From IMG/VR virus record IMGVR_UViG_3300044977_000044, positions 1 through 50,567 of that record: a stretch of 50,567 nucleotides of DNA. One strand, given 5' to 3'. The notes under the pieces were generated by a model that was not told the origin of the DNA, made no database searches, and saw only the letters and a list, made by a program, of their open reading frames with translations. The position numbers and the translations under genes are program-made. Origin of the DNA: a virus. This document shows, in pieces, positions 1 through 50,567 of this stretch (positions within the stretch are counted from its first letter, which is position 1; every line of letters begins with the position of its first letter).

Positions 1-102
1 GCACCATGCGGCATGTGTCCGCAAGGACTGCGCTCAGCAGCACAACGCGCTGTGCGTATGTCCTTGATAACAGAAGAGTTACGTAAGTGCGTGCGTGGCT
101 AA
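1..102 (+). CDS. 3' fragment of the 50227-50532 gene, duplicated by the terminal repeat
   Basis: Reading frame 1 encodes the last 33 residues of the protein that is complete at 50227-50532, stopping at TAA 100-102. It has the same CxMC cysteine pair. It has no start of its own here, so it is simply the wrapped end of that gene and not a separate locus. The stop codon lies inside the left arm of the 85-283 palindrome. Confidence 0.85.
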   Translation, partial: APCGMCPQGLRSAAQRAVRMSLITEELRKCVRG

Positions 103-123
103 TTACGGAGCCTACCCACACGC
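1..123. repeat. Left copy of 123-bp terminal direct repeat
   Basis: Positions 1-123 are identical to 50431-50553. The match breaks at 124 (G here, A in the right copy). It carries the 3' end of the gene that starts at 50227 and the left arm of the palindrome at 85-283. It may be the overlap of a circular or circularly permuted genome, or a true short terminal redundancy. Confidence 0.95.
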
Positions 124-283
124 GTGCGGTCGGGAAAAGGAACGACAAAGGTGGTATCCTCATTTCTATATCATATATTTTTTTTACACTACTACCGTAC
201 TACTATTGTTTTGGTAATTAAATTTTGCCTTAACTTGACCGCGGATGTGTGGGTATGCTCAAGAATTAGCCACGCACGCACTT
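85..283. other. Very long imperfect palindrome (candidate structured RNA, origin or genome-end element)
   Basis: Bases i and 368-i pair over long stretches: 85-104 with 264-283 (20 of 20), 108-111 with 257-260, 113-121 with 247-255 (9 of 9), 126-131 with 237-242, and 137-140 with 228-231. Counted as plus-strand RNA, G-U pairs at 122/246, 125/243, 132/236 and 133/235 fill several gaps. The loop (141-227) is AT-rich and includes a run of nine T at 177-185. The left arm overlaps the end of the preceding gene and the terminal repeat. An early promoter follows at 318. Function is unknown. Confidence 0.85.
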
Positions 284-295
284 TGTGCTATTGTT

Positions 296-316
296 GATTC
301 TAATGCACTTATAGTC
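296..316. promoter_or_regulatory. 21-bp dyad, copy 1 (candidate operator)
   Basis: The sequence is GATTCTAA-N5-TTATAGTC. The arms are imperfectly inverted (6 of 8). Both arms recur unchanged at 5759-5779, while two of the five central bases differ (TGCAC here, AGCAG there). This copy ends one base before the -35 box at 318. Conserved arms, a variable centre and a promoter-adjacent place are what an operator would show. The ribbon-helix-helix protein at 5826 is the obvious candidate ligand, by inference only. Confidence 0.6.
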
Positions 317-317
317 C

Positions 318-346
318 TTGACAAATGCGCGTATCCTCAATACACT
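318..346 (+). promoter_or_regulatory. Sigma70-type early promoter
   Basis: The -35 box TTGACA (318-323) is perfect, the spacer is 17 bp, and the -10 box TACACT (341-346) matches TATAAT at 4 of 6. Transcription would begin near 353, just before the AGGAGG ribosome site at about 359-364 of the gene at 376. It sits directly beside dyad copy 1. Confidence 0.65.
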
Positions 347-375
347 GTACACAGTACAGGAGGATACGCAAGGCC

Positions 376-873
376 ATGGCCTTTCCAGCACCAGATATAC
401 CGGAACTTACATGCCGTTGTGGTCGGTGGAACAATAAGATACATTGTCCGGCTTGTGGCGGCTACGCTATACTTGGACTCGGCGTGAAACACAACATCGC
501 GGTGCAGTTACCGAACACCAACGACACGGTCGTTGTATGCTCGTTCAAATGCCGACGGTGTAACATTAAGTTTAATGACTTTGAATGGCGTTACAAATGC
601 GAAGCGCCACGGTACGAGTCTGCTACTATGCAGATTCGCCGTCTTAAGGACGAGGCGGCAGAAAAGGTCAAACTTGCAGGCGAGGATATGAAGCTTACGG
701 CTATGGCTAATGGTGCTACGATTGAACAAGCACGCCACGTTGCTATGGCTTATATGTTTTACCAACGTAACCCGGCAATGCTCAAGCCAGGTGACTTGGA
801 TGAACTTCGCCGTTTCTTGAAAATGAACATACCAAGACAGGCTGGCGAAGATGAACAGGAGGTTATTCGATGA
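376..873 (+). CDS. Zinc-ribbon-like early protein, unknown function
   Basis: A 165-residue protein. ATG 376 is chosen because AGGAGG lies about 11 bases upstream and the start follows a good promoter at 318; an in-frame ATG at 325 would lie within the promoter. The N-terminal third has CxC, CPxCG and a later CxxC pair (CRRC), the pattern of a zinc ribbon. The C-terminal two thirds is helical and charged (many Ala, Glu, Lys), with no catalytic motif I can name. It is the first gene of the early operon and overlaps the next start by ATGA, so the two are translationally coupled. DNA, RNA or protein binding through the ribbon is plausible. Confidence 0.75.
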   Translation: MAFPAPDIPELTCRCGRWNNKIHCPACGGYAILGLGVKHNIAVQLPNTNDTVVVCSFKCRRCNIKFNDFEWRYKCEAPRYESATMQIRRLKDEAAEKVKLAGEDMKLTAMANGATIEQARHVAMAYMFYQRNPAMLKPGDLDELRRFLKMNIPRQAGEDEQEVIR

Positions 874-983
874 CTTCGTTACCGAAGGTAAGCGCAAGCG
901 ATAAGCTGTGGCTCGCCGTTGCTGTCGCAACTATCGTTGTAATCTTCATTGCACTGTACTTCGCACCTCCATTGCCAAACTGA
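870..983 (+). CDS. 37-residue single-pass membrane protein
   Basis: A small open frame whose ATG overlaps the previous stop (ATGA) and which has AGGAGG at 857-862. After about 13 polar residues, a stretch rich in Leu, Ala, Val and Ile (about residues 14-33) forms one transmembrane helix, ending in a Pro-rich tail. The strong ribosome site, coupling and clear membrane segment argue that it is real. The function is unknown; early phage membrane miniproteins often act on the host envelope or on superinfection, but nothing in the sequence decides this. Confidence 0.65.
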   Translation: MTSLPKVSASDKLWLAVAVATIVVIFIALYFAPPLPN

Positions 984-1026
984 TGTTGTGGTTCAATTTA
1001 CAATCCTGAAAGGAAGGTACACCGCC

Positions 1027-1236
1027 ATGCCGCTACATGGAAACGGACTTACAGTCGTGGAACAGACGTATCGGATTATTAACCGTACTGAGGCGTTGCG
1101 CCGGCTCATTTTGCTTCGCAAACTGGCGTTTGAACACGAAGTACAAGACGCGCAGCGTATGGCGCAAGCTGTCGCTGATTTAGATCCCTTCGGGACGAAG
1201 CAAGAGCAGTTTCGTAATATTTTGGAAGTGATTTAA
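1027..1236 (+). CDS. Small helical early protein, unknown
   Basis: A 69-residue protein. ATG 1027 has AAGGAAGG about 10 bases upstream, and I prefer it to an in-frame ATG at 949 that would overlap the previous gene. The sequence predicts mostly amphipathic helix with alternating Arg/Leu and Glu/Gln. There are no cysteines, membrane segments or known motifs. It is the last gene before the 1345 terminator and so closes the first early transcription unit. Confidence 0.65.
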   Translation: MPLHGNGLTVVEQTYRIINRTEALRRLILLRKLAFEHEVQDAQRMAQAVADLDPFGTKQEQFRNILEVI

Positions 1237-1282
1237 CGCCTTGCGTTGCAGTCACTTACAGCTTGCGTTCACAAAGCGAAGC

Positions 1283-1311
1283 TTGACATCCTAATAAGGA
1301 TGCAATAGACT
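1283..1311 (+). promoter_or_regulatory. Promoter with internal dyads
   Basis: The -35 box TTGACA (1283-1288) is perfect, the spacer is 17 bp, and the -10 box TAGACT (1306-1311) matches at 4 of 6; the same -10 hexamer is used by the leftward promoter at 49250. The spacer carries a perfect inverted repeat CATCCT-AATA-AGGATG (1287-1302), and GACTC-GAA-GAGTC (1308-1320) covers the -10 and start site. Both could bind a regulator or be stems of a larger RNA. Confidence 0.55.
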
Positions 1312-1344
1312 CGAAGAGTCACATGCTACGCAAGTGATCCCGTA

Positions 1345-1374
1345 GCTCCGAGGGCAAAATCGGAGCGTCTTTTT
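1345..1374 (+). terminator. Rho-independent terminator / attenuator
   Basis: A perfect 7-bp stem GCTCCGA (1345-1351) / TCGGAGC (1360-1366) with an 8-base loop is followed by GTCTTTTT. It ends the 318-1236 unit. It also lies only about 30 bases after the presumed start of the 1283 promoter, so it may attenuate transcription toward the gene at 1520 or end a short RNA of about 55 bases. Confidence 0.8.
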
Positions 1375-1460
1375 AAGCCAGCTTTGCTTTCGGTTACTAT
1401 CGGCGCTTCTCAACGTCCGGTTAACCATTTGGACTAGGTTAGCGAAGCTGGCTTAGAAAG
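1369..1460 (+). other. 20-bp leader hairpin that takes in the terminator T-tract
   Basis: Bases 1369-1388 pair with 1441-1460 over 20 positions, 18 Watson-Crick and two G-U (1373/1456 and 1385/1444). The 5' arm includes the T-tract of the preceding terminator. The enclosed 52 bases hold a smaller stem, GTCC (1415-1418) with GGAC (1431-1434). Lying just ahead of the ribosome site of the gene at 1520, it looks like a structured 5' leader. Confidence 0.7.
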
Positions 1461-1519
1461 TTTCGCAGAAACTCAGAATGGTACACTCAACGTACCGGAA
1501 AGAAAGGAGTAACATTACC

Positions 1520-1993
1520 ATGTCGAAGACATACAACGAGACTCGGTATACGTTGAAGTATACCGAGACGAATGACAAACAGGAACAGGTCGATTCCTTT
1601 AAGGTCTTGACCGAAAAGCAAGCCAACGAAGAGCTAGAAGCGGCCAAGGCCGCAGGCACACCGGGGCCGGAAGTGGTAAAGATGCAAACCTTCGGTTATG
1701 TCGAGGCAGAATCACCGGCCGATTTTGAGACGCTGATCGCCAACGAAGTCGAGCGCGTAAACGTGTTCAACCGCGGCTACGTGCTGAAACAGCAAAGCAT
1801 TATCCGCGACTTCATGCTCGATAATGAGCAGCAAGCCACGGACGGAGTCTACGACCTGACGGCGGATGCGGCTGAGGTACGTGAACGACGCAAGGCTACG
1901 CCGGCTGAGAAGGCCATGAAGGCTCTGTCGGCGCTTAGCGCGGATGAAATTGCGAAGATTCTTTCGCAGTTCACTGCTGCGCAATCAGCGTAG
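1520..1993 (+). CDS. Soluble early protein, unknown
   Basis: A 157-residue acidic, Ala/Glu-rich protein. ATG 1520 has AAAGGAGT at 1503-1510, and the in-frame ATG at 1478 lies upstream of that site, so 1520 is chosen. The N-terminal part suggests a beta-rich segment, the centre has an acidic helical stretch (about 85-120), and the C-terminal 40 residues form an Ala/Leu helix. No known motif is visible. It stands alone between a structured leader and a strong terminator (2040-2072), so it is a one-gene transcription unit, which suggests high or separately regulated expression. Confidence 0.75.
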   Translation: MSKTYNETRYTLKYTETNDKQEQVDSFKVLTEKQANEELEAAKAAGTPGPEVVKMQTFGYVEAESPADFETLIANEVERVNVFNRGYVLKQQSIIRDFMLDNEQQATDGVYDLTADAAEVRERRKATPAEKAMKALSALSADEIAKILSQFTAAQSA

Positions 1994-2039
1994 CTGAAAG
2001 TTCGGGCGCTAGCCCGATTCCTCGACCAGAGAGAGGATA

Positions 2040-2072
2040 GAGTGCCACGGAGTATTAGTGGCACTCTTTTTT
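2040..2072 (+). terminator. Strong Rho-independent terminator
   Basis: A perfect 9-bp stem GAGTGCCAC (2040-2048) / GTGGCACTC (2058-2066) with a 9-base loop is followed by six T. It lies 47 bases after the stop at 1993 and isolates that gene from the next promoter at 2131. Confidence 0.92.
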
Positions 2073-2130
2073 GTTTTCCACAGTTTCGTTAAAGTATCGT
2101 AAACTGTTGAAAACAAAGAACATACAACGC

Positions 2131-2158
2131 TTGACAAGCACTTAGTAAGTATTATCAT
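2131..2158 (+). promoter_or_regulatory. Sigma70-type promoter for the 2177 operon
   Basis: The -35 box TTGACA (2131-2136) is perfect, the spacer is 16 bp, and the -10 box TATCAT (2153-2158) matches at 5 of 6. Initiation would fall near 2165, about 12 bases before ATG 2177. It follows directly after the terminator at 2040, so it starts a new unit that could run through the FtsK-like gene. Confidence 0.7.
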
Positions 2159-2176
2159 GGTACAATAAAAGGCCAT

Positions 2177-2848
2177 ATGCCACCACTTGGCGAAATATGT
2201 TGCGATTGTGGTGTTAGGACTACACATTACTTCACGACGTGGTGTTGGGGTGGTGGAAGCAATACGATACAAATACGTTGCCGTAATTGTTACAATGCCC
2301 AAAAAGCGGCGATGCACGCTAGTAATTATGGAGCTAATATGAGCGTAAAAATCCTCTGGGACGACTCCGTACAAGCGTACCGCGTGGCTACGCCTTACTC
2401 GCCAAACTTCGTCGAGTTGCTAAAGCAACAGATACCGATCGCACACAGAGTGTGGGACCCTCAAATGAAAATCTGGACCATTGCCGAGCAATTCGGCGAT
2501 CCGGTTAAGAAGCTCTGCGAAGCGGTGTTCGCGGCGCCGAATGTAACGTTCGTCAGCAAAGCTGAAGCTCAACGGATTGCGGCGCTGCGTGCTGCGCAAG
2601 CGCAACAGGCACAATCTAATCAATACTACGGTTATGTTCCGCCACGCCAACCGCAACCGCAACGCGGTGATCCTTTAGATTCCGTCATGCTTACATTCTG
2701 TAAAATGTTGCCATACGACGCTGCTAAAGCAGCGTACCGTAAAGCGGCTATGGAATTGCATCCGGACCGCAATGGCGGCAACGCCATTTCAATGCAGGTC
2801 CTGAATACTTCGTGGTCAAGGATTGAAAAGGAGTTTTACCAGAAATGA
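2177..2848 (+). CDS. J-domain protein with N-terminal zinc site (DnaJ-like)
   Basis: A 223-residue protein. The last 50 residues form a DnaJ-type J domain: a YRKAAMELHPDRNGG-type segment carries the HPD tripeptide that stimulates Hsp70 ATPase. Residues 8-40 have CxxCG and CRNC, a candidate zinc site. The middle (about 55-130) carries WDDSV...VWDPQMKIWTI, which resembles the small HARP-like fold of SMARCAL1-type proteins; that likeness is only my impression. ATG 2177 has a weak ribosome site, while ATG 2339 has GGAG at good spacing, so a shorter form lacking the zinc site is possible. Its likely role is to recruit host DnaK to a phage replication or assembly complex. Confidence 0.75.
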   Translation: MPPLGEICCDCGVRTTHYFTTWCWGGGSNTIQIRCRNCYNAQKAAMHASNYGANMSVKILWDDSVQAYRVATPYSPNFVELLKQQIPIAHRVWDPQMKIWTIAEQFGDPVKKLCEAVFAAPNVTFVSKAEAQRIAALRAAQAQQAQSNQYYGYVPPRQPQPQRGDPLDSVMLTFCKMLPYDAAKAAYRKAAMELHPDRNGGNAISMQVLNTSWSRIEKEFYQK

Positions 2849-3108
2849 AAGCCATCGGGATGCTCCCAATACTTATCGACCGATCGAAGATGCGGCGCAT
2901 TAAGATTACGTGTCGCTGCTCACGCCATTGGATCGAAGACGTACCGTCTGAGGTCCACGACTCGTGGCTCGTTATGGCGTTCTTCTGTCCTTCGTGCGGA
3001 AGTGAATACCACTTACAAAACAAGAAGCTCGAACGTGCGGAGCAACGCTCCAGCAAGATGCCACGCACAGAGTGGCCCGTTCCGGATGGGCCGGGAGGCA
3101 ATGCATAG
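2845..3108 (+). CDS. Small zinc-ribbon protein, unknown
   Basis: An 87-residue protein starting in ATGA overlap with the J-domain gene. It holds CRC (residues 23-25) and CPSCG (about 48-52), spaced as the two halves of a zinc ribbon, followed by a basic, Lys/Arg-rich helix and a Pro-rich tail. No enzyme motif is seen. A role as a nucleic-acid or protein adaptor is possible. Its last bases overlap the candidate ribosome site of the next gene. Confidence 0.7.
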   Translation: MKAIGMLPILIDRSKMRRIKITCRCSRHWIEDVPSEVHDSWLVMAFFCPSCGSEYHLQNKKLERAEQRSSKMPRTEWPVPDGPGGNA

Positions 3109-3394: not shown

Positions 3395-4242
3395 CGTTGC
3401 ATACGCCAGGCAGCTCTACGAGCTTGGCTAACAGGATTAAAATCGGCGGCAGCAAGCTGCACCAGCGCGTAGCGGCGGCTGCACCCTTGGACGTTGCGAA
3501 GCAAGCGGCGCTTTCGGTACCGTTACAAGTACCAAACGCCAAGAATCCATATGATGCCTCGTTAGAAATGCCGAACCGCATCGGTATGATGCTTGACGGT
3601 TCATTTTCGATGTGTTCTGCCGAAGGCGACGGTAAATCGAAGATTAACCATCTTAAAGAGGCTTGCCTCGATTTTATACGAAGTTGCGACTTTTCGACTA
3701 CGTCGATTGCCATCGAAACGTTCCCCACCTCTGGTGTTGAAGACGATGATGAAGGTGCGTGGGCGCCACAGAACAACGATCCGCTTGCGCATTTGTTACC
3801 GCCAGGTCAATCACCGCAACGAAGTCGCAAGTCTGCAAGACGCGGTCTCTGCAACATTGAGGCATTCCTGCAAGCCGACATCGACGCGTTGCAGGCGTGT
3901 GGCGGAACGCCAATGGCTGGCGCCATGCAGCGTAGCCTTACAACGAACTCGCTTACGCGAGGCATTCTTGTAAGTGACGGTGAAGCCGATTCGGCACAGC
4001 GCGCAATTGACATTGCAAAGCAATGGAAAGAGGCAGAAATCGCCATCGACTGCGTCCACATCGGGCGCTCTTCGAGTGGCGAAGCGTTGCTCAAGGAAAT
4101 AGCGGAGCTTACCGGCGGTTTGTACATCAAGTTCGATAACGTTAGTAACTTCTCGAAACATTTCAAGTACCTTGCTCCGGCGTTCCGAGCAATGCTAACC
4201 TCCGGTTCGGCTGGGATGCTTGGGGCGAAGGAGGTAAAATAA
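3367..4242 (+). CDS. von Willebrand factor A (vWA) domain protein
   Basis: A 291-residue protein. A vWA fold starts near residue 70, with the metal-ion-dependent adhesion site motif DGSFS (residues 77-81, DxSxS), a GGTPM loop that supplies the MIDAS threonine, and LVSDGEAD, a typical vWA strand-turn. The first 65 residues are low in structure. There is no signal peptide, so it is cytoplasmic. vWA proteins often pair with AAA+ or other ATPases as metal-dependent protein binders; here an FtsK-like ATPase lies one small gene away. AACAGGAG upstream of ATG 3367 supports the start. Confidence 0.8.
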   Translation: MPDKEQDKLTLHTPGSSTSLANRIKIGGSKLHQRVAAAAPLDVAKQAALSVPLQVPNAKNPYDASLEMPNRIGMMLDGSFSMCSAEGDGKSKINHLKEACLDFIRSCDFSTTSIAIETFPTSGVEDDDEGAWAPQNNDPLAHLLPPGQSPQRSRKSARRGLCNIEAFLQADIDALQACGGTPMAGAMQRSLTTNSLTRGILVSDGEADSAQRAIDIAKQWKEAEIAIDCVHIGRSSSGEALLKEIAELTGGLYIKFDNVSNFSKHFKYLAPAFRAMLTSGSAGMLGAKEVK

Positions 4243-4416
4243 ATGGAACACATCCAAGGAAGATTCGCCTTCCGTTACGATTTCGACTTCAAAGCGATGC
4301 GTTGTTTTGTGTATTGCACCGACTCAGACGGGCGTCGGTGGCTCGGCGAGTGTATCTTGCACGAACAAAAAGACGAGGAATTGAGCTTAGGACCGTTACC
4401 AAAGGCGAAGCCATGA
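4243..4416 (+). CDS. 57-residue protein between the vWA and FtsK-like genes
   Basis: The start ATG 4243 directly follows the vWA stop and has a strong GGAGGT site about 10 bases upstream. The stop overlaps the FtsK-like start as ATGA. The protein is rich in Phe, Arg and Asp in its first half and reads like a small beta-rich domain (alternating hydrophobics in RCFVYCTDS and WLGECILH) with an acidic tail. It has three cysteines with no CxxC pair. Its position suggests a partner or coupling factor for the two flanking proteins. It is not recognised. Confidence 0.7.
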   Translation: MEHIQGRFAFRYDFDFKAMRCFVYCTDSDGRRWLGECILHEQKDEELSLGPLPKAKP

Positions 4417-5585
4417 TCCCCAACACCGCCCAAAAAGCATCGCTAACGCCGGAGCAGCTCGACATTGTTAGTAAGCTCGTAAGCAAGTTTATCGAACTTG
4501 GCGTAGATGTTGAATTCACACCCCCGGTAATGGTCGGTCCCGTTATATCACTGTATAAGTTCCGACCGTCCGGTCGTACTCGCGTTAGCCATATCGAGAA
4601 CCTAGCCGCGGACTTTGCCGTTCTTCTCGGCCACGAACGCATCTTGATCCAACGTCGTACTGGCGATACTGCTGTAAGTGTAAGCGTTCCAAACGCGGAG
4701 CGCAGCGTGGTGGATTTCAAAGCCTCAATGGGCGTCGTGACTAAAGTCTTAGCCGCGTCCGCCGCTGCAAGCAAGCCAATCCGGCTGCCGCTCAATCTCG
4801 GCGTAGACGAACAGGGCGTGCCAGTAATCGAAGATTTACCGAACATGCCCCACCTGCTTATAGCAGGGCACACCGACAGCGGCAAGTCAACGTTGTTGCA
4901 TTCGATTCTCGGTACGATCGTATACACTATGAACAGTCGTGACGTTCAGCTTGTTCTATCGGACATGAAAGCTGGCATTGAATTCAACATTTATGAAGGT
5001 GCACCGCACCTTGCGTTCCCTGTGTCAAAGACACCGTTCCAAACTCTGGAACGTATGCAATGGATCATTGACATAATGGAAGATCGGCTTCGTATCATTG
5101 CTCACGCCAGTAAGCGCGACATCTTTGGCTACAACGAAGTTGCAAAGCACATTGGCGGTAACCACTTACCGTACATCATACTTGTCATCGACGAGGCAGC
5201 TTCGCTCTTTGGAAAAGGAGGCAAAGGCAATGGCAAAGGCTCATCGAAGATTGCCGACGAAATGCTCGGAACCATCTGTGCCAAAGCAAGAGCCGCCGGC
5301 GTGTACATCATCGTCGCAACGCAGCGACCGTCGGTCGATGTTATTGGCGGTAGCATCAAAGTTAATATCCCCGCTCGACTTTCGTTTAGATTGCCTACCG
5401 GCGTTGATAGTCGAACAGTCCTCGGAACAGAAGGGGCAGAAAATCTTCTATCCCGAGGTGATTGCCTGTTCGTTTCGCCAATGCGTCCAGCACCGATCAG
5501 ATTGCATTCTCCCTACGCTTCCATTGAAGATGTGCGGGCCGCAGTAGAATACGCCAAGGCGCGCGAAGCAGGAACTGCGTTATGA
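4413..5585 (+). CDS. FtsK/SpoIIIE-type ATPase (DNA translocase-like)
   Basis: A 390-residue protein. The FtsK family core is clear: Walker A AGHTDSGKST (about 149-158), a following conserved SDMKAGIEF-type segment, Walker B YIILVIDEAA, and the FtsK signature IVATQRPSVDVIGG...KVNIPARLSFR. The N-terminal 120 residues resemble the alpha/beta module of FtsK-type motors. No membrane segments and no obvious gamma (DNA-sequence-reading) domain are seen. Such ATPases move dsDNA. Phages normally package with terminase, so this early copy probably acts on replicating or host DNA, or comes from a plasmid-type transfer module. Position-coupled (ATGA) to genes on both sides. Confidence 0.85.
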   Translation: MIPNTAQKASLTPEQLDIVSKLVSKFIELGVDVEFTPPVMVGPVISLYKFRPSGRTRVSHIENLAADFAVLLGHERILIQRRTGDTAVSVSVPNAERSVVDFKASMGVVTKVLAASAAASKPIRLPLNLGVDEQGVPVIEDLPNMPHLLIAGHTDSGKSTLLHSILGTIVYTMNSRDVQLVLSDMKAGIEFNIYEGAPHLAFPVSKTPFQTLERMQWIIDIMEDRLRIIAHASKRDIFGYNEVAKHIGGNHLPYIILVIDEAASLFGKGGKGNGKGSSKIADEMLGTICAKARAAGVYIIVATQRPSVDVIGGSIKVNIPARLSFRLPTGVDSRTVLGTEGAENLLSRGDCLFVSPMRPAPIRLHSPYASIEDVRAAVEYAKAREAGTAL

Positions 5586-5794
5586 GAATCACCTACGGTA
5601 AACTTGACGAAGATGACTGGCTTTGCCACTTAAACCATATTCTTAACGGAGTGGAGACATCCACAAAGTGGTGTGGCGTATGCCACTGGTACAGCAAGTG
5701 CGACCCGCTGGCGCGGAACAGGCTCCTGTGCAAATCTCTTCGAGATGCGTATGTTGTTGATTCTAAAGCAGTTATAGTCGAAAAAATGTCTTGA
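5582..5794 (+). CDS. Small Cys-rich protein downstream of the FtsK-like gene
   Basis: A 70-residue protein coupled by ATGA to the ATPase gene. CGVC followed by single Cys residues about 8 and 17 positions after the pair looks like a compact zinc knuckle. The C-terminal codons contain dyad copy 2 and the upstream edge of the promoter at 5791. The peptide it encodes there (VDSKAVIV) resembles that of an open frame over dyad copy 1, so either the DNA site or a former duplicated gene end is conserved. The function is unknown. Confidence 0.65.
   Translation: MRITYGKLDEDDWLCHLNHILNGVETSTKWCGVCHWYSKCDPLARNRLLCKSLRDAYVVDSKAVIVEKMS
5759..5779. promoter_or_regulatory. 21-bp dyad, copy 2 (candidate operator)
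   Basis: The arms GATTCTAA and TTATAGTC are identical to those at 296-316, with centre AGCAG. Here the gap to the -35 box is 11 bases, against 1 at copy 1: a 10-bp shift, about one helical turn. That places a bound protein on the same DNA face relative to both promoters. It lies inside the end of the 5582 gene. Confidence 0.6.
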
Positions 5795-8119: not shown

Positions 8120-8295
8120 GCGACCAGGAAACGACCGAAATGACTACCGCAAAGCCGGAACAGGCTCGACAAGCCGTTAAACTCCGCTCTCAGTATGAAT
8201 CGGATCGTGCAGCCTTAGCCCAGTTCTACCGCGACTTGATCGCATCCGCAACCGACGACGAGAAACTCCACAACTTGTATCAGGAGCATGGGTAG
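8116..8295 (+). CDS. 59-residue helical protein, unknown
   Basis: Coupled by ATGA to the membrane peptide, with AAAGGAA upstream. After a polar N-terminus, residues 13-58 predict one or two helices rich in Gln, Ala and Asp. There are no cysteines or motifs. It could pair with its membrane-anchored neighbour. Confidence 0.55.
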   Translation: MSDQETTEMTTAKPEQARQAVKLRSQYESDRAALAQFYRDLIASATDDEKLHNLYQEHG

Positions 8296-8382
8296 GGACC
8301 CGTAAAGAACTCACCGCAAGCGTTGCTTCGTAGAATAAAAAGCGTTTGAACTTTTAAGGGGCTATGGGGCAGGAAAGGGTGA

Positions 8383-11412: not shown

Positions 11413-11628
11413 ATGGCTGACAAAGAACTAACATCGAATGCCTACTGCATCGGATGCAGCGCACGCATTCCAGTCTACGAACTTATGTGTAGTTCCTGCA
11501 AACGTAAGTTTCCAGTCCTTGCCTCAAGAGCGAAGCTCTGCTCGGAGTGCGGCAGGCCATATTTTGTACCGCCTACGGCGGAGCAAGTTGAACAGGAAAG
11601 GCTTGAAAAATGCCAGAAACAATCCTGA
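11413..11628 (+). CDS. Double zinc-ribbon small protein
   Basis: A 71-residue protein. ATG 11413 has GAGGAG at good spacing; a TTG at 11401 lies within that site. Three cysteine pairs (CIGC, CSSC, CSECG) cover residues 12-48, enough for one to two zinc ribbons of the zinc-ribbon/rubredoxin-like type. The tail is acidic. It overlaps the methyltransferase gene by 19 bases. Likely a nucleic-acid or protein adaptor; not recognised as a family. Confidence 0.7.
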   Translation: MADKELTSNAYCIGCSARIPVYELMCSSCKRKFPVLASRAKLCSECGRPYFVPPTAEQVEQERLEKCQKQS

Positions 11629-12902: not shown

Positions 12903-13030
12903 AAGAGCTGGTTCTGCAAACTTTGTTTGCGTTAGCCTACGAAGTACAATGGTATCACGAACACTGCCTTGCAGTGTTAGATGAGGACGGAAGTGGGATT
13001 ACTGACCGACGCTTTAAGCAATCTTTGTAG
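12863..13030 (+). CDS. 55-residue protein overlapping methyltransferase and polymerase genes
   Basis: ATG 12863 has GGAG about 9 bases upstream. The frame covers the last 40 bases of the methyltransferase gene and the first 50 of the polymerase gene and bridges the gap between them. The peptide is predicted helical with an acidic tail. The good ribosome site and the gap-filling position support it; overlap with both neighbours weakens it. It may mainly couple translation into the polymerase gene, whose own ribosome site is poor. Confidence 0.45.
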   Translation: MYVDKSEAGSHQIKELVLQTLFALAYEVQWYHEHCLAVLDEDGSGITDRRFKQSL

Positions 13031-15584
13031 GTCCAAGGGGCTGAACTTCGTTCAGTTCCGTGGCGACCCACGAAGCCCTGTGTGGGTAATCGGCGAAGCC
13101 CCTGGCGCCGACGAGGACCAGTACGGAGTACCGTTCTGCGGTGCCTCCGGCAAAGAGCTTGATCGGATGCTTGCAGAAGCCGGCTTTCGCCCAGATACAG
13201 TCTGTTTCACGAACCCTTACAATGTAAGGCCGCCAGACAATGATCTATCACGTATCGAAGAACTTGGTGTTCCGAAGGAACAGTATGAAAAAGCTTTTCT
13301 CGAAATGCTCACCGAGTATAAACCCACTATACTTATTCTCACTGGCGGGACTCCCACTTCGTTGCTTTGCCCAGATACCATTTCTAAACGAGCAGGAGAA
13401 ACGCAGATTACGAAGTGGCGAGGCAGCTTGCTATGTAGCCCGAAGCTCGACTGGCCACACTACTGCGTTCCTGTGTACCACCCAGCCTTCGTCTTGCGGG
13501 AATGGTCTGAGCGACAAGTCGCAATCTTGTGTCTCGAACGAGCTAGAGAAGAGTTCGATTTCTGGCGACAGAACCAGCGACTCCAAACACTTCCTGAGAG
13601 GCAACTTATTGTACAACCCGGAGCGTCGGAAGTTGTAGACTTCTTGCGTTCGTGTCTCGCCTCGGACAGTTACGTCAGTAACGATATTGAAACGATCAGC
13701 GGTAAATACCCCTACACCTTCGGTATTGCACCGTCGGCCAAACTTGGCATGAGCTTCAGCTTATGGAATTATGAACCAGAACAACTCCGTAAAATCTGGC
13801 AAAGCCTCGACCTGGTACTTAAAACAAGAAAACAAATTGGACAAAATTATCTCGGATTTGACTGCTGCCACTTGGAGGCCCTCGGATTCCGACCGAGGAC
13901 GGATTTGGCAAGCGATACTATGGTTAGGCACCACATTTTATGGCCCGAGTTTGAGCACAAGTTACAGTTTCAAACATTCCAATACACGCGCCAGCCTTAC
14001 TATAAAGATGAAGGCCGACTCTGGCACCCCCGGCAGGGGATCGCCCCGCTCATGCGGTATAACGCTATGGATGCGTGTGTCACTTATGAAGCTCACGAAA
14101 GGCAGGAGGAAGAATTTGATGACAGACCATACCTGCGAACGTTCTACGAAACGTACCAAAAGAAACTTAACCACCACTTCCATTGGATCGAAAAACGCGG
14201 ACTCCTTACGGACGCCACTGCGCTGGCGGGACTTAATAACTTTATTCTCACCGAACTTGGAAAGGCTTGCGGAGAAATATCCAAGTTTACGAACAGGCCG
14301 GTATCGGCTGATAAGCCTGGCTGCATTAAGCTTGCCAAAAGCCTCGGTTGTACGGAGAAAGAAATCGTCAACCTCAATTCGCCAACGCAAGTCATCACGC
14401 TGCTTAAAGCGGCAGGCTGTAAAATCCCAAAGAAGCGCGGTTCCGGTAAGGAAAGCAGCGACTCGGAAACGCTAAACAAGATCGTCGCCGAAACGGCCAA
14501 TCCCGTTGCCGTTCAGGTACTGCAAACGCGTGAGTTATCGAAGATAAAAGGAACCTATGTCAATGCGAAGCTTGCTGATGGCATCCTCTATTGCTCTTAT
14601 GTCGTTACTGGCACCGTTACTGGCCGGCGGAGTAGTCGCGCTAATGTTTTTGGACTCGGCACCAACCACCAGAACTTACCTAAGCATTCTATTCTTGGTA
14701 AGAAGTTTCGCCGTTGTCTGGTTGCTCGGCCTGGTTACATTTTTGTTAGCTGTGACCAAGCTTCCGCTGAAGATTGGATCGTCCAGGGGATAATCGCAGA
14801 TCAGACTGGCGTTCTTTCAGGTTTACAGGAACTGCGCGATGGCGTCGATAGGCACCAGAACCTCGCCGCGTTCGTGTTCTCGAAGCCGAAGGCTGAATGC
14901 GGTAAAGATACAATGTACCGTTACCTTGGTAAGAAGACGCGCCACGCAGCTAATTATGATATGGGTCCGTTCCGGATGTCGCAGGCACTGGCAACTGAAG
15001 GTTATACCATAACACAGGATCATTGCGAATCGTTGCTTAACAGTTTTCATACGTTCGATCCGTCGATACGTGGCGTGTTCCATGCTTACATACAACATGA
15101 AATGCTCACGTCACGGACGTTACGAACACCACTCGGTAGAGAGCGGTACTTTTTCGGTCTTCGACCGTACTCCGACAATCACAAACTCTTCAAAGAAGGC
15201 TATGCCTACATTCCCCAATCCACCGTAGGTGACAACACCGGCCTTGCCATCAACTATGTTGAAGAACACTACCCTGAACACTGCGTATTGGAAACCCATG
15301 ATGCAATCACACTGGAAGTGAAGGACGAGCCGGCGGAGATTATAAAAGCCGCAGGCGTGCTGCAAGCAGCTTTTCACCGAACACTTGTGTTCCCGAAGGG
15401 ACTCGAAATTGAAATTCCGATCGAGACCGAAATCGGTTACAATCTACAGGATACAAAGAAATGGACAGAGAATGGCGACCTGTACCAATTGCTTTCTATG
15501 CTTCGTTCTATGAAATCTCAAACCTTGGCGAAGTCAGAAGAACAAAATCAGCCAGTCCAAGAAACCGCTTCGGTAAGTTGCTAA
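12981..15584 (+). CDS. Uracil-DNA glycosylase domain fused to family A DNA polymerase
   Basis: An 867-residue protein. Residues 30-195 match family 4-type uracil-DNA glycosylases: GEAPGADEDQYG (38-49), PFCGASGKELDRML, NPYNVRPPDN (78-87) and YHPAFVLR (166-173). The paired cysteines that hold their 4Fe-4S cluster are not clearly kept. Residues 230-370 form a 3'-5' exonuclease (DIE at 235-237; NYLGFD; NAMDACVTY). Residues 520-780 form the polymerase: motif A CDQASAED (591-598), motif B KKTRHAANYD (651-660), motif C THDA (772-775). His replaces the usual motif B lysine and Ala replaces the Glu of HDE. ATG 12981 has a weak ribosome site; GTG 12993 is an alternative. The last 40 residues overlap the HNH gene. 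Confidence 0.88.
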   Translation: MRTEVGLLTDALSNLCRSKGLNFVQFRGDPRSPVWVIGEAPGADEDQYGVPFCGASGKELDRMLAEAGFRPDTVCFTNPYNVRPPDNDLSRIEELGVPKEQYEKAFLEMLTEYKPTILILTGGTPTSLLCPDTISKRAGETQITKWRGSLLCSPKLDWPHYCVPVYHPAFVLREWSERQVAILCLERAREEFDFWRQNQRLQTLPERQLIVQPGASEVVDFLRSCLASDSYVSNDIETISGKYPYTFGIAPSAKLGMSFSLWNYEPEQLRKIWQSLDLVLKTRKQIGQNYLGFDCCHLEALGFRPRTDLASDTMVRHHILWPEFEHKLQFQTFQYTRQPYYKDEGRLWHPRQGIAPLMRYNAMDACVTYEAHERQEEEFDDRPYLRTFYETYQKKLNHHFHWIEKRGLLTDATALAGLNNFILTELGKACGEISKFTNRPVSADKPGCIKLAKSLGCTEKEIVNLNSPTQVITLLKAAGCKIPKKRGSGKESSDSETLNKIVAETANPVAVQVLQTRELSKIKGTYVNAKLADGILYCSYVVTGTVTGRRSSRANVFGLGTNHQNLPKHSILGKKFRRCLVARPGYIFVSCDQASAEDWIVQGIIADQTGVLSGLQELRDGVDRHQNLAAFVFSKPKAECGKDTMYRYLGKKTRHAANYDMGPFRMSQALATEGYTITQDHCESLLNSFHTFDPSIRGVFHAYIQHEMLTSRTLRTPLGRERYFFGLRPYSDNHKLFKEGYAYIPQSTVGDNTGLAINYVEEHYPEHCVLETHDAITLEVKDEPAEIIKAAGVLQAAFHRTLVFPKGLEIEIPIETEIGYNLQDTKKWTENGDLYQLLSMLRSMKSQTLAKSEEQNQPVQETASVSC

Positions 15585-15847
15585 AACCAATGGTAGCCAA
15601 GGGCTATTACTTTGTAATGCTTTGGCGACTTGGCATGTCATCAGTGTACCAGGTACATTGCCTTGTAGCCGGTGCATTTTTAGGAGAACGTCCTCCTAAT
15701 TATGTAATCCACCACAAAGACGATAACCGTACCAATAACGCTGCAATAAACTTGGTATATATACCAACAAGAGTCAATACTTGCGCGAGGTATTCGCAGA
15801 CAAGGGCAAGTTACCTTGAGACAGCTAAAAGGATCGTGGGTAGATAA
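15461..15847 (+). CDS. HNH homing endonuclease (NUMOD4-HNH type)
   Basis: A 128-residue protein. The N-terminus (EWRPVPIAFYASFYEISNLG-type segment, then EVRRTK) is a NUMOD4 DNA-binding repeat, followed by VHCLVAGAFLG and HHKDDNRTNNAAINLVY, the HNH core with catalytic HH and N residues. This is the usual free-standing homing endonuclease. It starts 124 bases inside the polymerase gene and ends 32 bases into the next ATPase frame, so it appears to have been inserted between two replication genes and to have remodelled the 3' end of one and the 5' end of the other. Its cleavage target is probably an uninvaded polymerase-ATPase junction, by inference. Confidence 0.85.
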   Translation: MDREWRPVPIAFYASFYEISNLGEVRRTKSASPRNRFGKLLKPMVAKGYYFVMLWRLGMSSVYQVHCLVAGAFLGERPPNYVIHHKDDNRTNNAAINLVYIPTRVNTCARYSQTRASYLETAKRIVGR

Positions 15848-16988
15848 TTATGTAACGTGGGTATCCAAACTTGCTGACAGCCCTTCTCAATACCACTGGT
15901 GGAGTGCGGTATCGGTCATAGCTGCAACTCTAAAACGCCGTGTTTGGGTGAATAGGGGATCGTGGAAGTTAATGCCTAACCTTTTCACGATACTCGTCGG
16001 CCGTCCTGGGTACGGTAAAGGCGGAGCTGTCAACCCGGCAGTTGGGATACTAAATGAGGCCAATTCCGCCAACGTTTTATCTGACCGTCTTACAATTGAA
16101 TATGTACTTGAAAGACTTTCAAAAGGTTTCGCGGCAACAGCACCTGGCGCAACGCCGCAATCGTTCACACTTGGAAAAGAAGCGTCAGCGATGATATTCG
16201 CGCCAGAATTATCAATTTTTGTATCGTCAACGCACACACTTCAGATTCTGTCAGATTTGTGGGATGCCAGAGAAGGAAAATTCCATTATGGGACACGGCA
16301 TAAGGGAGAATGGCACATTCAAGACCCTTGCCTTAGTATGCTCGCTGCTTCTGCTCCTGATTGGCTTATACGAACAATCCCTACGGACGCAGTCGGCGGC
16401 GGTTTTACTCGCCGTGTTAATTTTGTACTTGCGTCCAAGCCGTCGGTAAAGACAAATGCTTGGCCGGTTTACAACGGGGCTGGACAGGTCCGACAGGAAC
16501 TCATTGAAGACCTTCGCAGAATAAGCCAACTACAAGGCGAGTTCAAGTTCGATTCCGGCGCGAAGCTCGACTTTGAAAAGTTGTTTGGCGAGACACTCGG
16601 AGAGTGGGAAGATGAAGCGACTGCTTCGTATATTACTACAAAGTGGGCTCATTCTACTAAGCTGGCCATGGTGCTTTCTGCTTCTCGCGGTGACGATCTT
16701 GTTATTACCGCTGCTGATTTTGCCGCAGCTAGAGGAATGGTTGACCAGGTCACTACGGACCTTAAAACGGTGTTCAGGGGCGCTGGCACCGGGGATTACG
16801 TCACGGCGTGTGATAAAATAGTTCAGTACCTTGAAATGAAACCTGGCGCTTCGCGCAGAGAAATTATGGGCTTCGCCTGGAAGTACGTTCACTCAGCAGA
16901 GCTTGACGTTTGTTTAGTAACCTTGGAACAAGGTAACATGATCGAGTCGCGTCAGCGTGGCAACAATACTGTATATTTTAAGAAGTGA
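15816..16988 (+). CDS. DUF3987-type phage ATPase / primase-helicase-like
   Basis: A 390-residue protein. The start region (VDNYVTWVSKLADSPSQYHWW), a P-loop GRPGYGKGGA (62-71), MIFAPELSIFV as Walker B-like strand, ILSDLWDAREGKF and GGGFTRRVNFVLA (arginine-finger region) fit the DUF3987-type helicase/ATPase proteins common in phages. The P-loop has GKG where GKS/GKT is usual, which could weaken Mg-ATP binding. The C-terminal 70 residues suggest a winged helix. TTG 15816 is the only plausible start, with a weak site, perhaps a scar of the HNH insertion. The likely role is a replicative helicase or helicase loader. Confidence 0.7.
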   Translation: MRQLKGSWVDNYVTWVSKLADSPSQYHWWSAVSVIAATLKRRVWVNRGSWKLMPNLFTILVGRPGYGKGGAVNPAVGILNEANSANVLSDRLTIEYVLERLSKGFAATAPGATPQSFTLGKEASAMIFAPELSIFVSSTHTLQILSDLWDAREGKFHYGTRHKGEWHIQDPCLSMLAASAPDWLIRTIPTDAVGGGFTRRVNFVLASKPSVKTNAWPVYNGAGQVRQELIEDLRRISQLQGEFKFDSGAKLDFEKLFGETLGEWEDEATASYITTKWAHSTKLAMVLSASRGDDLVITAADFAAARGMVDQVTTDLKTVFRGAGTGDYVTACDKIVQYLEMKPGASRREIMGFAWKYVHSAELDVCLVTLEQGNMIESRQRGNNTVYFKK

Positions 16989-35008: not shown

Positions 35009-35269
35009 TTAGCTTTCGTCTGGTTGAATGGTGGCGTCGTCTGTTGTTTCCTTTAGCAATTGCATTACGTCCATTTCATGGTCATTCTGTTCCAATACTT
35101 CGCGGATCAACTCATCACGCTCGTAGGTCAGTAGATTGTCTACGCACTTCTCGGTGCATAGAATCAAACCATTCTGGCGCGTGAGCTGCGGTGCAGGATA
35201 CTCCATCCCGCACCGATCGCAACGGTGCCAAGGACCTTTCCGAAATCCGCTATGTGATTGGTTAGGCAT
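35009..35269 (-). CDS. Small zinc-finger-like protein in capsid cluster
   Basis: An 86-residue protein with CDRCG (16-20) and LCTEKC (about 36-42), a CxxC...CxxxC zinc site, followed by an acidic helix. Its start overlaps the stop of the exported 35269 gene by a base. Small zinc proteins in virion clusters are common and often act in assembly; the function here is unknown. Confidence 0.65.
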   Translation of the reverse strand: MPNQSHSGFRKGPWHRCDRCGMEYPAPQLTRQNGLILCTEKCVDNLLTYERDELIREVLEQNDHEMDVMQLLKETTDDATIQPDES

Positions 35270-38861: not shown

Positions 38862-39146
38862 TTATTTAAGGACAAGTCCCGTTCTGCTGCCTCCGGTGAC
38901 AGGGCTTACCTTTTTCTTCCGAACATTCTCTTGATACTGTCGTATTTCCTCCGGTAAGCCAAGGATACGGGACAGCACCTTGAACTCGCCCTGCGCCCGC
39001 GCGGCAGCAAGACCTTCCGCCGTTGCGAGCGTTTTCAGCGCCGAGTCTTGCCACTCCGTTAGGAATTGTATAACGGCTTTGCCGTCGGCAGATTCAAGCC
39101 ACTTCTTTGAGCTGGTCGTAGACGTTAGTACAACGTCGATATTCAC
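38862..39146 (-). CDS. Small virion-cluster protein, unknown
   Basis: A 94-residue protein whose ATG 39146 overlaps the portal stop by ATGA. Two helices (about 14-45 and 50-85) with hydrophobic faces; the tail is basic. No named motif. Small proteins of this size often sit between portal and scaffold genes. Confidence 0.6.
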   Translation of the reverse strand: MNIDVVLTSTTSSKKWLESADGKAVIQFLTEWQDSALKTLATAEGLAAARAQGEFKVLSRILGLPEEIRQYQENVRKKKVSPVTGGSRTGLVLK

Positions 39147-41071
39147 TGAATACCTCCAGGCCCAGGTCCAGCACCGCTCGGTAACGCAGCGGTAGCCGGT
39201 AAGCCCGGCAATGCCCCGTTCGCACCAGCAGGGATCGGAGAAGCGGGCGGCGGAGCGTTATTAGCGCCGGCACCGCCCGGTCTCGCCTGCGGCTGTTGGG
39301 GAGGAGCTGCTTCCGCATCGGGTACAAGACGGTCTACCTCGTCCCGCCCGAAGTGCCGCAGAACACTTTTCATCAACAAGTTGCTTGCAAGTACGGCTTC
39401 GCCAATATATTTCTTAACCGGGTCCGGTAACATGGCATTCTGCGCCTGCATAAGCATCTGTGTTACCATACCGTAATGCTTCTGCATCATCTGGCTTAGC
39501 ATCACGTCAGCTTGTTTCTCAACCTCACGGTTAACCGACGCAGTAGCGGCGTACACCGGCAAAGCTATCGCTTTTTGTTTAACAAGATCCATCGCCTCAC
39601 GCAAGCGGTCCGACATCTTACCGAATAGACCTACACGGTCACCAAGACCAAAATGCGCATATTGATTCAAGAGGATACGCCCGAGTTTGGTATGAGCATA
39701 CCGTATATCTGTAACATTGAGATCGGTACGAGTATTGCCCTCTTGCATAAGGGACAAAGTCCCCATAGCAGTATATACACCTCGTTTGGTGTTAGTTCCA
39801 GCTCCGTAACCTTGCATAGGCGGAGACACGCCGGACAATTTTTCTGCGAGTTCAATGGAAAGATTCTCCTCTTCAATCGACATCGCACTCACATCGCCTT
39901 GCGAGAGCGGTTCGATTTCGTCTTTCCTTGCCGGAAGCATCGCGCTCGGAAACACGCGATAGCCTTTGTGAAGCTGACTGTCGGGATCAACTCTCCACAC
40001 TTTCGTGTTAACGACAGTCATGTTATCACGACGCTGGTTGTGCATCTGGCTTATCTCTTCCTGAAAGGGCGCCAGCCGTTCGCAGAAGCCATAACCAAAA
40101 AACATATCGTCCCGGTAAAAGAGACGAGCCGTAACAAAGATTTGGTCGGGGTAATAGAAATAAAACGCACGTAGAATGGAATTGGTACGTTCGTGGTACC
40201 ACGCAATTACACGAACGTAATGCTCGCCAAAGCGGTACTTAAAATGACATTCGTAAATGTGGTACTCAGCGTAGCCAAAGCTCGCTAGTGAAACGGCTCC
40301 GGTGTCCTGCTCTTCGGAGCTTTGAACTACATCCGGTGATGTACGATCCGGCGACTTCAAGACTTCGTCTACGACCTTCTTGTCATAAATATCATAGAAC
40401 GCCCTCTCTTGAAGCTGGTGTTTCTGCAACCGGATACGGTGATAAACGAAGTCTGCATCTTCGAGAGTCTTTGCCGAAGGCGGCACGCCAAAGTCACTAA
40501 AGCGGATCTTTTCCGGTCGTGGGCCTTTGTAAAGAACCTCATCCTCAAACTCCGTCTTCCCGGAACCATCACCTGCGGTATAAGCTGACGCTTCAATAAT
40601 CTTGACTTGCGGGCACTTTACAGTGCTCGTACCATAACGAATCGTCTCCCCATACCATTCATGGTACACACGAAACAAGTCGAGTTCCGAAGGTTCGATG
40701 GAGACGTAAGTCATAAACTCTTCAACCGCTTCGCGCCGCTCATCCATTGCCTTAGCATCGACGTGCTCACCGTAAATTTTTGCGACCCAAGGCGGTTGTG
40801 TTTTCAACACTGCGGCCATTACTCTGGCGAGTAGCGTGTCGGAGTGAATGGCGATTATCGGGATAACGTTGTTGGACGCGTTATAGAACGGAAATTCTCG
40901 AATAGATTCCGCAGGAATCGCTTCATAAGCTTTGCGCCAATTCACGACACGATCTTCATGTATTACTTGACAGCCCTGGCGTATCGCCATGATACGACGA
41001 CGCATAAAGGCTTTCAGGCGCACCTCTACACCGGAGGTGGGCTTAAGCGGGATTGGTGTCGTATTAGGCAT
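39143..41071 (-). CDS. Portal protein
   Basis: A 642-residue protein. The N-terminal region VRLKAFMRRRIMAIRQGCQVIHEDRVVNWRKAYEAIP and long mixed alpha/beta body (IIAIHSDTLLARVMAAVLKTQPPW, YHEWYGETIRYGTSTVKCPQVKI, FGYGFCERLAPFQEEISQMHNQRRDN) match the layout of podovirus portals, which form the dodecameric DNA gate. A Gly/Pro/Ala-rich C-terminal tail (from about 595) is unlike the rest. The neighbours are the terminase upstream and scaffold downstream. The size is in the usual 500-750 range. Confidence 0.8.
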   Translation of the reverse strand: MPNTTPIPLKPTSGVEVRLKAFMRRRIMAIRQGCQVIHEDRVVNWRKAYEAIPAESIREFPFYNASNNVIPIIAIHSDTLLARVMAAVLKTQPPWVAKIYGEHVDAKAMDERREAVEEFMTYVSIEPSELDLFRVYHEWYGETIRYGTSTVKCPQVKIIEASAYTAGDGSGKTEFEDEVLYKGPRPEKIRFSDFGVPPSAKTLEDADFVYHRIRLQKHQLQERAFYDIYDKKVVDEVLKSPDRTSPDVVQSSEEQDTGAVSLASFGYAEYHIYECHFKYRFGEHYVRVIAWYHERTNSILRAFYFYYPDQIFVTARLFYRDDMFFGYGFCERLAPFQEEISQMHNQRRDNMTVVNTKVWRVDPDSQLHKGYRVFPSAMLPARKDEIEPLSQGDVSAMSIEEENLSIELAEKLSGVSPPMQGYGAGTNTKRGVYTAMGTLSLMQEGNTRTDLNVTDIRYAHTKLGRILLNQYAHFGLGDRVGLFGKMSDRLREAMDLVKQKAIALPVYAATASVNREVEKQADVMLSQMMQKHYGMVTQMLMQAQNAMLPDPVKKYIGEAVLASNLLMKSVLRHFGRDEVDRLVPDAEAAPPQQPQARPGGAGANNAPPPASPIPAGANGALPGLPATAALPSGAGPGPGGIQ

Positions 41072-44202: not shown

Positions 44203-44204
44203 TG

Positions 44205-44489
44205 TTAGTCCAAATACACGTACACCGCACCAGCATCAAGCGTGTCAAGGATCAGTCCATTAACTACACCAATTTTGGCGCTACGCACCTCTGACAAGTC
44301 AGCGGCGCCTGTAAACGTTTCGATTATGTTACCGTTCTGATCTTTCAAGATCGCACGGTTACCTTGTGCGGCGTAGCCGCTGAACTGGAAGTGGTTCACT
44401 TTTATGTTCCAGTTGGCAATGACAGCGTTAGGCTGGCCGAAGGCGATTGGAGTGTCAAGGCGCCATTGACGAGGACCGATGTTGTTCAT
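44205..44489 (-). CDS. Small beta protein ahead of terminase
   Basis: A 94-residue protein with strands such as WNIKVNHFQFSGYAAQGNRAILKDQNGNIIET and a hydrophobic C-terminal end (LILDTLDAGAVYVYLD), suggesting a small Ig- or jelly-roll-like fold. It begins with AACGGAGT upstream of ATG 44489. Its neighbours are the exported protein at 44543 and the terminase. Possibly a virion-associated beta domain. Not recognised. Confidence 0.6.
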   Translation of the reverse strand: MNNIGPRQWRLDTPIAFGQPNAVIANWNIKVNHFQFSGYAAQGNRAILKDQNGNIIETFTGAADLSEVRSAKIGVVNGLILDTLDAGAVYVYLD

Positions 44490-49278: not shown

Positions 49279-49578
49279 GGCTTTTCTTACTTCGTAAGTC
49301 GTTACGCACAGTGGGCTTAGCCGAAAGGCTACGAACTAGTTACTAACTTCGTTATGTCTTGTTCCGTTACCGCAACGAAGTTTCAATGCCGTAGCGCAAG
49401 CGCTACGAACGTATACGAAGTACACAACCGTACCGTACACGAAGTGTGGCAACTTCGTTATTGAAAGTTGGGAAGCAGGAAAAATTATTTTAGCGGCCAA
49501 TGGCACCTCTGGTAGTGGCTATGGTTTTGGGGCCTAGGGGTCCGGCGACCCGCCGTAGCAAGTCCTTGCCGCGTAAGC

Positions 49579-49608
49579 GTGACACTATATGTGTACGATG
49601 TGTATAAA
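49579..49608 (+). promoter_or_regulatory. Possible rightward promoter
   Basis: GTGACA (49579-49584, 5 of 6), an 18-bp spacer and TATAAA (49603-49608, 5 of 6). Initiation would fall near 49615, inside the left arm of the 49610-49662 dyad, and about 170 bases upstream of the 49788 gene. It is weaker evidence than for the early promoters. Confidence 0.45.
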
Positions 49609-49662: not shown

Positions 49663-49787
49663 CATACGCGAAGCGTATAGCGACAAAGAACCTTTACGCA
49701 TCAGCGACTAACGTTAGTACCGTGCTCCGCACTGCCGTGCATAGACTTCGTCTAAGGACGATACGCAGTATCTCTCTGGAGGAGAAT

Positions 49788-50177
49788 ATGCCAAACGAAG
49801 AAACAGTGCAAGAGAAAGCCCAACGTGAACGGCGCGAAGCTCTGGAACTTGCTATCGAAGATGTGCCACAAGCGTGCATCGACTTGATGTGTGTTGTTGT
49901 GGAGCAAGACCCAGAAAAACGCAGTACAAGCTACTGGCTTGGCGAAGCCTTCGTGTACGTCCACAAGTACCAGAAACGACTGCGCGAGTATGCCGCAGAA
50001 CGTGAGGACAATCGCAAGCGCAAGGAGAACGAGAACTTGTTCTCCAAGTACATTGCGATGACGCCGCCGAAGAATGCCACAGAGTTGCTCACGCTTATGC
50101 AACGCTTCGGCATCTGCCCACAAGTGCCTGTTCCTGTGGAAGCGCCAGCAGCGCCAACAGCAACGCAAGTAGCGTAA
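49788..50177 (+). CDS. Helical early protein, unknown
   Basis: A 129-residue protein. ATG 49788 has GGAGGAG 4-10 bases upstream, better than the open frame from 49722. The middle (about 35-90) is a charged helical region (YVHKYQKRLREYAAEREDNRKRKENENLF) likely a coiled coil; the C-terminus is Pro/Ala/Val-rich. No named family. It is one of two rightward genes in front of the wrapped end. Confidence 0.7.
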   Translation: MPNEETVQEKAQRERREALELAIEDVPQACIDLMCVVVEQDPEKRSTSYWLGEAFVYVHKYQKRLREYAAEREDNRKRKENENLFSKYIAMTPPKNATELLTLMQRFGICPQVPVPVEAPAAPTATQVA

Positions 50178-50226
50178 ACGAAGTTCAACCACAACAGCAC
50201 GCCAGTGCGGAGCGAGGTACTCACGT

Positions 50227-50532: not shown

Positions 50533-50553
50533 TTACGGAGCCTACCCACACGC
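50431..50553. repeat. Right copy of 123-bp terminal direct repeat
   Basis: Identical to 1-123, then the sequence diverges into a 14-base tail (50554-50567) that does not match 124-137. The tail could be a minor assembly variant, an end-specific sequence or a sequencing error; the rest of the window gives no second copy. Confidence 0.95.
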
Positions 50554-50567
50554 ACTAACGTAACTAT

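Follow-up and report, generated by a model that had tools for sequence, protein, structure and literature searches.

Long stems of freely changing sequence in the early region of an uncultured phage group, tentatively read as early-mRNA structures

The early mRNA of bacteriophage T7 is cut by RNase III at long stems between cistrons, and T7 gene 1.2 is inhibited by a downstream segment. Palindromic viral origins consist of a long dyad with an AT-rich centre, occur once or a few times per genome, and retain initiator-binding sequences in their arms. N4-type promoter hairpins, for their part, are short and sequence-specific. In the icaR mRNA of S. aureus, the end of the 3' UTR pairs with the Shine-Dalgarno region, which blocks initiation and makes the duplex a substrate of RNase III; the pairing element is a short motif, UCCCCUG, of a host gene (PMC3868564). 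Cluster K mycobacteriophages carry ESAS, imperfect inverted repeats of unproven function at the starts of some non-structural genes, with 17-bp repeats that share a consensus, spacers of 4-13 bp, many copies and a 13-bp start sequence (PMC3203893).

The early region described here resembles several of these systems and differs from each of them. With T7 it shares long stems between early cistrons, which RNase III could cut into units, and with the 16S/23S pre-rRNA stems it shares long, likewise cuttable stems around a segment of the transcript. At 19-73 pairs, the stems reach or exceed the approximately two helical turns of a T7-type site in an intercistronic gap, provided that the gap is transcribed, as we infer. 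Unlike those of T7, which by the same scan has no inverted repeat scoring 13 or more, the stems of 19-73 bp enclose ORFs and are joined by one T-rich giant hairpin per genome. In contrast to ESAS, they share no sequence and have loops of 60-590 bases; no arm consensus was found between lineages, and the start sequence GGGATAGGAGCCC was not seen by eye. Viral origins are similar in dyad, AT-rich centre and copy number and differ in that no arm sequence is conserved here.

The window, meaning the whole 50,567-base stretch of DNA analysed, is a tailed-phage contig with early genes on the plus strand (from 49,722 across the contig junction to 17,700) and late genes, including those for TerL (42484-44202) and portal (39143-41071), on the minus strand. 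The early region encodes an FtsK-like protein (4302-5585), a DUF3987 primase-like protein (15816-16988) and, in a single plus-strand ORF (12981-15584), a family A polymerase with an N-terminal uracil-DNA glycosylase domain (PF00476 and PF03167). Its first genes, all on the plus strand, are the short gene A (49788-50177), gene B (50227-50532), whose last 102 bases are repeated at 1-102, and gene C (376-873), which encodes a CxCG/HCPxCG zinc-ribbon-like protein and served as the synteny marker for finding relatives. A promoter-like TTGACA-N17-TACACT sequence, read from the plus strand, lies upstream of gene C at 318-346, and most relatives have the same arrangement ahead of this gene. Directly before the promoter, a 26-base segment (291-316) that recurs with 92% identity at 5754-5779 may be a shared upstream promoter element. 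Farther upstream, ahead of the first early genes, the window (~49577-49595) and its relatives carry at the same position a conserved CACTATATATGAG-like motif, preceded in the relatives by ATTTTGAGCC and GGAAAATTTTT blocks; it is promoter-like and resembles promoters of single-subunit RNA polymerases, for which no match was found among the proteins scanned. The window contains no tRNA gene; one relative does (L018:12334-12405, Rfam 57 bits).

Between genes B and C lies a palindrome at 85-283. Its arms (85-140 and 228-283), in which base i faces base 368-i, form 44 Watson-Crick, 4 G-T, 2 A-C and 6 other oppositions. Direct recounting reproduced the blocks of 20, 4, 9, 6 and 4 pairs described in an earlier note, plus one single pair, as well as its match of 48 in 56 once G-U pairs are allowed. 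In a search of the window with 56-base arms and loops of up to 300, this was the top-scoring ungapped inverted repeat, and all matches of 33 or more were the same palindrome shifted around its own centre. It scored 27 in a genome-wide inverted-repeat scan that returned a single hit, of score 14, from nine shuffled genomes. Folding of 60-320 as RNA, the check that the earlier note had proposed, gave -98.3 kcal/mol for the plus strand (z -8.0, equalled by 0 of 200 shuffles) and -88.0 kcal/mol for the minus strand (z -7.65); both fold far beyond chance, but fold energy alone picks no strand. The left arm, as the earlier note had also described, overlaps the end of gene B (stop codon TAA, 100-102) as well as the direct repeat that the two contig ends share. 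The loop (141-227) is AT-rich, again as described, with an apex resembling TATATATTTTTTTTA that is also present in relatives, but its T run (178-185) counts eight bases rather than the nine reported. The stem could be aligned to that of no relative, none being close enough for a direct comparison of compensatory changes. A blastn search of window 1-3000 against 50,697 phage records gave no match, an exact 18-base stem pattern matched only one, unrelated, contig, and Rfam 15 contained no family scoring above its gathering threshold in the window or 16 related loci, apart from one tRNA.

Relatives were collected from IMG/VR by TerL, gene C and gene A searches. Scanning with a single gene C sequence returned nothing, and a profile search was required to reach them; a gene C search of genome contigs found no prophage and no host. 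The resulting set comprised 20 distinct uncultured-phage contigs of one TerL family, window included (TerL of the relatives ~52-68% identical to that of the window), compared over the syntenic stretch (Z)-A-B-(D/E)-C, in which A and B are short genes and C is the zinc-ribbon-like gene. The nearest named phages are very distant, with 28% identity in TerL to MW202554 and 27% in the polymerase to Microcystis phage Mel-JY34. Across nine contigs, inverted repeats scoring at least 16 numbered 20 within 24.8 kb of early region versus 4 within 270 kb elsewhere, and none as strong occurred in nine shuffled genomes. Those of the early operon recur in two kinds, which we call class I and class II.

Class II consists of one long hairpin per genome in most contigs, with an AT- or T-rich apex, located in the A-B gap in most contigs and in the B-C gap in the window. 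The T-tract search by which such hairpins were sought in relatives was itself biased towards T; all 7 family hairpins found without a T criterion have a T run, not an A run, in the loop, as do those of Mel-JY34 and MW202489. Tract length varies strongly, and L022 has at least 29 T (around 3400-3430) compared with 14 in its relative G004. When named phages were scanned in the same way as the relatives, three distant genomes showed a single dominant class II-like hairpin: MW202554 (73-nt arms, z -10.8), Mel-JY34 (at 44129-44291; 28-nt arms, 9 T in the loop, then a TTGACA promoter) and MW202489 (68-nt arms, 9 T in the loop on the early strand, followed by TTGACA). Less clear are the hairpins of Vibrio phage VS-ABTNL-3 and a Desulfofustis phage, with A runs in the loop on the strand shown and uncertain orientation, and that of Kuura has a GC-rich loop. 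T7, Pf-WMP3 and TR020 yielded no inverted repeat of comparable strength in the same scan. By this comparison the palindrome at 85-283 is a real, conserved structural element and is not peculiar to the contig in which it was noticed, and the idea that it is a chance palindrome or an assembly artefact, which its position at the contig end beside a chimeric-looking 14-base tail might suggest, is refuted and retains a negligible probability, given scores far outside those of shuffles and equivalently placed hairpins in most related contigs as well as in named complete phages.

Class I stems are 19-50 nt long, have their arms just outside one short ORF, and enclose loops of ~126-590 nt. They were found in 19 of the 20 contigs; L072 has no enclosing stem. 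In the window, a 30-nt 5' arm (49711-49740) is 87% complementary to a 3' arm (50197-50226) on the other side of gene A, and the two pair with a probability of 0.82 when 786 nt are folded. Within the 3' arm lies the ribosome-binding region for gene B (gene start at 50227). A second arrangement occurs around the small Z ORFs (41-55 codons) of G003, G011 and G013, where the 5' arm contains the Shine-Dalgarno sequence and the 3' arm has the stop codon at its start; judged by position, L058 and L074 are arranged likewise. These Z-type stems share the geometry of icaR, in that the 3' region pairs with the Shine-Dalgarno sequence of its own gene, whereas in the window the 3' arm covers the ribosome site of gene B. 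Unlike icaR, the stems are 19-50 bp long, lie on short phage ORFs, and keep their pairing through sequence replacement. The enclosed ORFs (G011 8193-8318, on the contig of L027; G013 14006-14173; G003 11419-11583) are mutually unrelated, and that of G011 resembles a small C2H2-type zinc finger; the stem layout is retained while the enclosed ORF is swapped in the manner of a cassette. Adjacent stems abut (G013 14196|14197; G008 3723|3724). In long folds the arms pair with each other at a probability of at least 0.6 in nearly all cases, although some predicted enclosing stems fail in the longer fold (L010r, and L063 on the plus strand).

The stems of different lineages are unrelated in sequence, even those whose flanking genes are mostly 82-100% identical, yet they still pair. 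For example, G008 and G017 share mostly 90-100% identity in gene A and mostly 82-93% in gene B, but 47-62%, about unalignable, in the class II hairpin between these genes, which folds in both (z -12.4 and -8.2). An identical 4-base loss in both arms distinguishes the class II hairpins of G004 and L022. For the small-ORF class I stem, 18 of 23 pairs have changed on both sides and 94.7% of cells are paired, a combination reached by 0 of 500 shuffles; because the stems were found by an inverted-repeat search, the paired percentage is partly built in, which is not true of the conserved position, the relation to the ORF, the motif and the invariant non-canonical pairs, namely a U-G pair and, two pairs along, a G-G mismatch, both present in 5 of 5 lineages. 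Covariation in the gene A stem is weaker (8 of 25 pairs, 0 of 500 shuffles). Taken together, these comparisons support selection on structure well. We also considered whether hairpins are swapped between lineages, but the stem of no lineage was found in another, and what matched across lineages was mainly the AT apex, along with the neighbouring gene A arm. Quick replacement of stems with pairing kept is a puzzle for which recombination, template switching or diversifying selection could be invoked.

Which molecule and strand act can be approached from the mismatches. The earlier note had taken the G-U pairs as a hint of a plus-strand RNA; the direction proved right, but the signal is weak for the window hairpin alone, with 4 G-T versus 2 A-C. 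Among class I stems the ratio of G-T to A-C is 40:28, with 12 lineages against 2 leaning that way, and among class II hairpins it is 29:19 in the family and 12:5 in five distant genomes (41:24 together); for each class the excess falls short of significance after correction for composition and is suggestive only. The class II strand excess taken alone is not significant (p about 0.06-0.3), the minus strand folding almost as well, and by fold energy 12 of 16 lean plus (p 0.06-0.08), which is not decisive. The invariant U-G wobble and the covariation of the ORF-enclosing stems favour the coding strand, as RNA. Because of the relation to ORFs, the placement of Shine-Dalgarno sequences, loops too long for cruciforms, the U-G wobble, the T run and the G-T excess, we infer that RNA rather than DNA is the acting molecule, an origin of replication being the main rival. 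Of the three readings offered in the earlier note, a large early RNA is the best supported, in view of early-operon hairpins in relatives beside covarying ORF-enclosing stems.

Our data tentatively suggest, with a probability of roughly 0.47, that both classes are early-mRNA structures that part cistrons and hide ribosome sites and are probably cut by RNase III. The palindrome would be the window's copy of a conserved early-operon element of this podovirus-like group, free in stem sequence, AT/U-rich at the apex, placed after the first short early genes, and acting in the plus-strand early mRNA jointly with the ORF-enclosing stems. The early transcript would fold into a row of closed units, in which long stems part cistrons, pair the two ends of single ORFs and cover some ribosome-binding sites (in the window, that of gene B). 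The host's RNase III, which is specific for double strands, would naturally accept stems of 19-73 pairs, and by cutting them it could set free and cap mRNAs of single genes, on the model of T7 early mRNA and S. aureus icaR; the cut ends would stay paired and resist exonucleases, and ribosome sites such as that of gene B would become uncovered. Recurrence at one place, downstream of small early genes and ahead of or next to a TTGACA promoter, speaks for this model; a count of one per genome, by contrast, is uncommon for processing sites and would suit an origin. That there is a widespread phage cis-element defined by shape only, in which one replaceable giant hairpin with a T-rich apex per genome and early genes closed 5' to 3' turn the mRNA into a string of closed loops whose ribosome sites stay hidden up to the processing step, is a bolder proposal that we hold with less confidence. 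So far as searched, the arrangement is new as described and in principle known as early-mRNA structure; a search of openly available papers yielded no description of ORF-enclosing stems or long intergenic hairpins in phages. If the model is correct, a lytic phage group governs its first genes through the shape of their mRNA, and the stems evolve too fast to be caught by sequence, which would account for their absence from Rfam.

The alternative that survives best, although we consider it unlikely, is that the palindrome acts in DNA as a replication origin, with its AT-rich centre serving as an unwinding element or as a single-strand primer hairpin. An origin would explain why most contigs have one class II hairpin per genome and why it is the dominant repeat in MW202554, Mel-JY34 and MW202489. 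Even in genomes of 38-46% AT the loop reaches 59-66% AT, the two strands fold nearly equally, and the phages encode their own family A polymerase and DUF3987 primase-like protein. On the other hand, stems that are unrelated even among close relatives contain no conserved iteron or protein site, and GC skew shows no sharp turn at the hairpin. Both the orientation of the T run and the surplus of G-T mismatches suggest that one strand matters, and an origin leaves unexplained the accompanying ORF-enclosing stems with their loops of 126-590 bases. Should the hairpin be an origin after all, it would show where replication begins in several lineages of uncultured phages.

Transcription termination or attenuation, in which the hairpin and its U tract would end the first early transcript before the gene C promoter, strikes us as improbable. 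The location is suitable, after gene B and before the TTGACA-N17-TACACT promoter, with the U tract on the coding strand and co-directional genes on either side. The U tract, however, is within the loop and not behind the stem, stems of 56-73 bases are far longer than those of intrinsic terminators, and in most relatives the hairpin is followed directly by the ribosome site of gene B, without a promoter. An intrinsic terminator has a GC-rich stem and an immediate U run; in the window, the right arm is followed by TGTGCTATTG.

Still less probable is that the hairpin is a genome-end element for processing of concatemers or packaging beside a terminal repeat, as the earlier note had also proposed. 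A hairpin end has been reported for T7 concatemers. The left arm lies inside a 123-base plus-strand direct repeat of the contig ends (1-123, identical to 50431-50553), the physical ends of Pf-WMP3 (a 234-base repeat) occupy an equivalent map position, one plus-strand gene past the divergent region, and the Mel-JY34 record starts right after its hairpin. Yet a direct terminal repeat would extend to the last base, and here 14 non-matching bases, ACTAACGTAACTAT (50554-50567, plus strand), follow the right copy and are absent from the left, so that the end does not look like a clean one; IMG/VR lists the record as linear and lacking end repeats. Moreover, relatives' contigs of 44-48 kb continue through the region and no relative's long contig ends at the element, a hairpin of this kind is absent from Pf-WMP3, TR020 and T7 despite their terminal repeats of 234, 216 and 160 bases, and in Kuura a 606-base terminal repeat and the hairpin are ~8 kb apart. 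The simplest view is that the 123-base repeat looks like a break where assembly failed at the palindrome. The 14-base tail folds back on 50507-50523 with 16 of 17 pairs and would be either a snap-back assembly chimera at the contig end or a strain variant with a shorter palindrome. A covalently closed hairpin telomere was rejected, as the contig ends repeat directly, not inversely.

Two further kinds of structure were noticed near gene C. Ahead of the gene, relatives carry a third structured element of ~107-150 nt with a near-invariant core, AGCAACGTTCTAGAGCTCTGGCGAAGC (L035:3735-3855, L028:3605-3725, L024:3756-3876, L069:3390-3510, L076:3645-3765 and L029:3660-3812). It is 97-98% conserved between G012 and G017, where the sequence on either side is only about 40-65% identical, and some pairs of its outer stem covary. 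It has no Rfam match, the exact core was found in this phage group only, and it is possibly a new small RNA. Farther hairpins lie 1-3 kb downstream of gene C in G012 (42990-43109), G017 (35140-35258) and G013 (16114-16205); these carry an AGGAGG or GGAGG Shine-Dalgarno sequence in the 3' arm and are putative ribosome-site hairpins of additional early genes.
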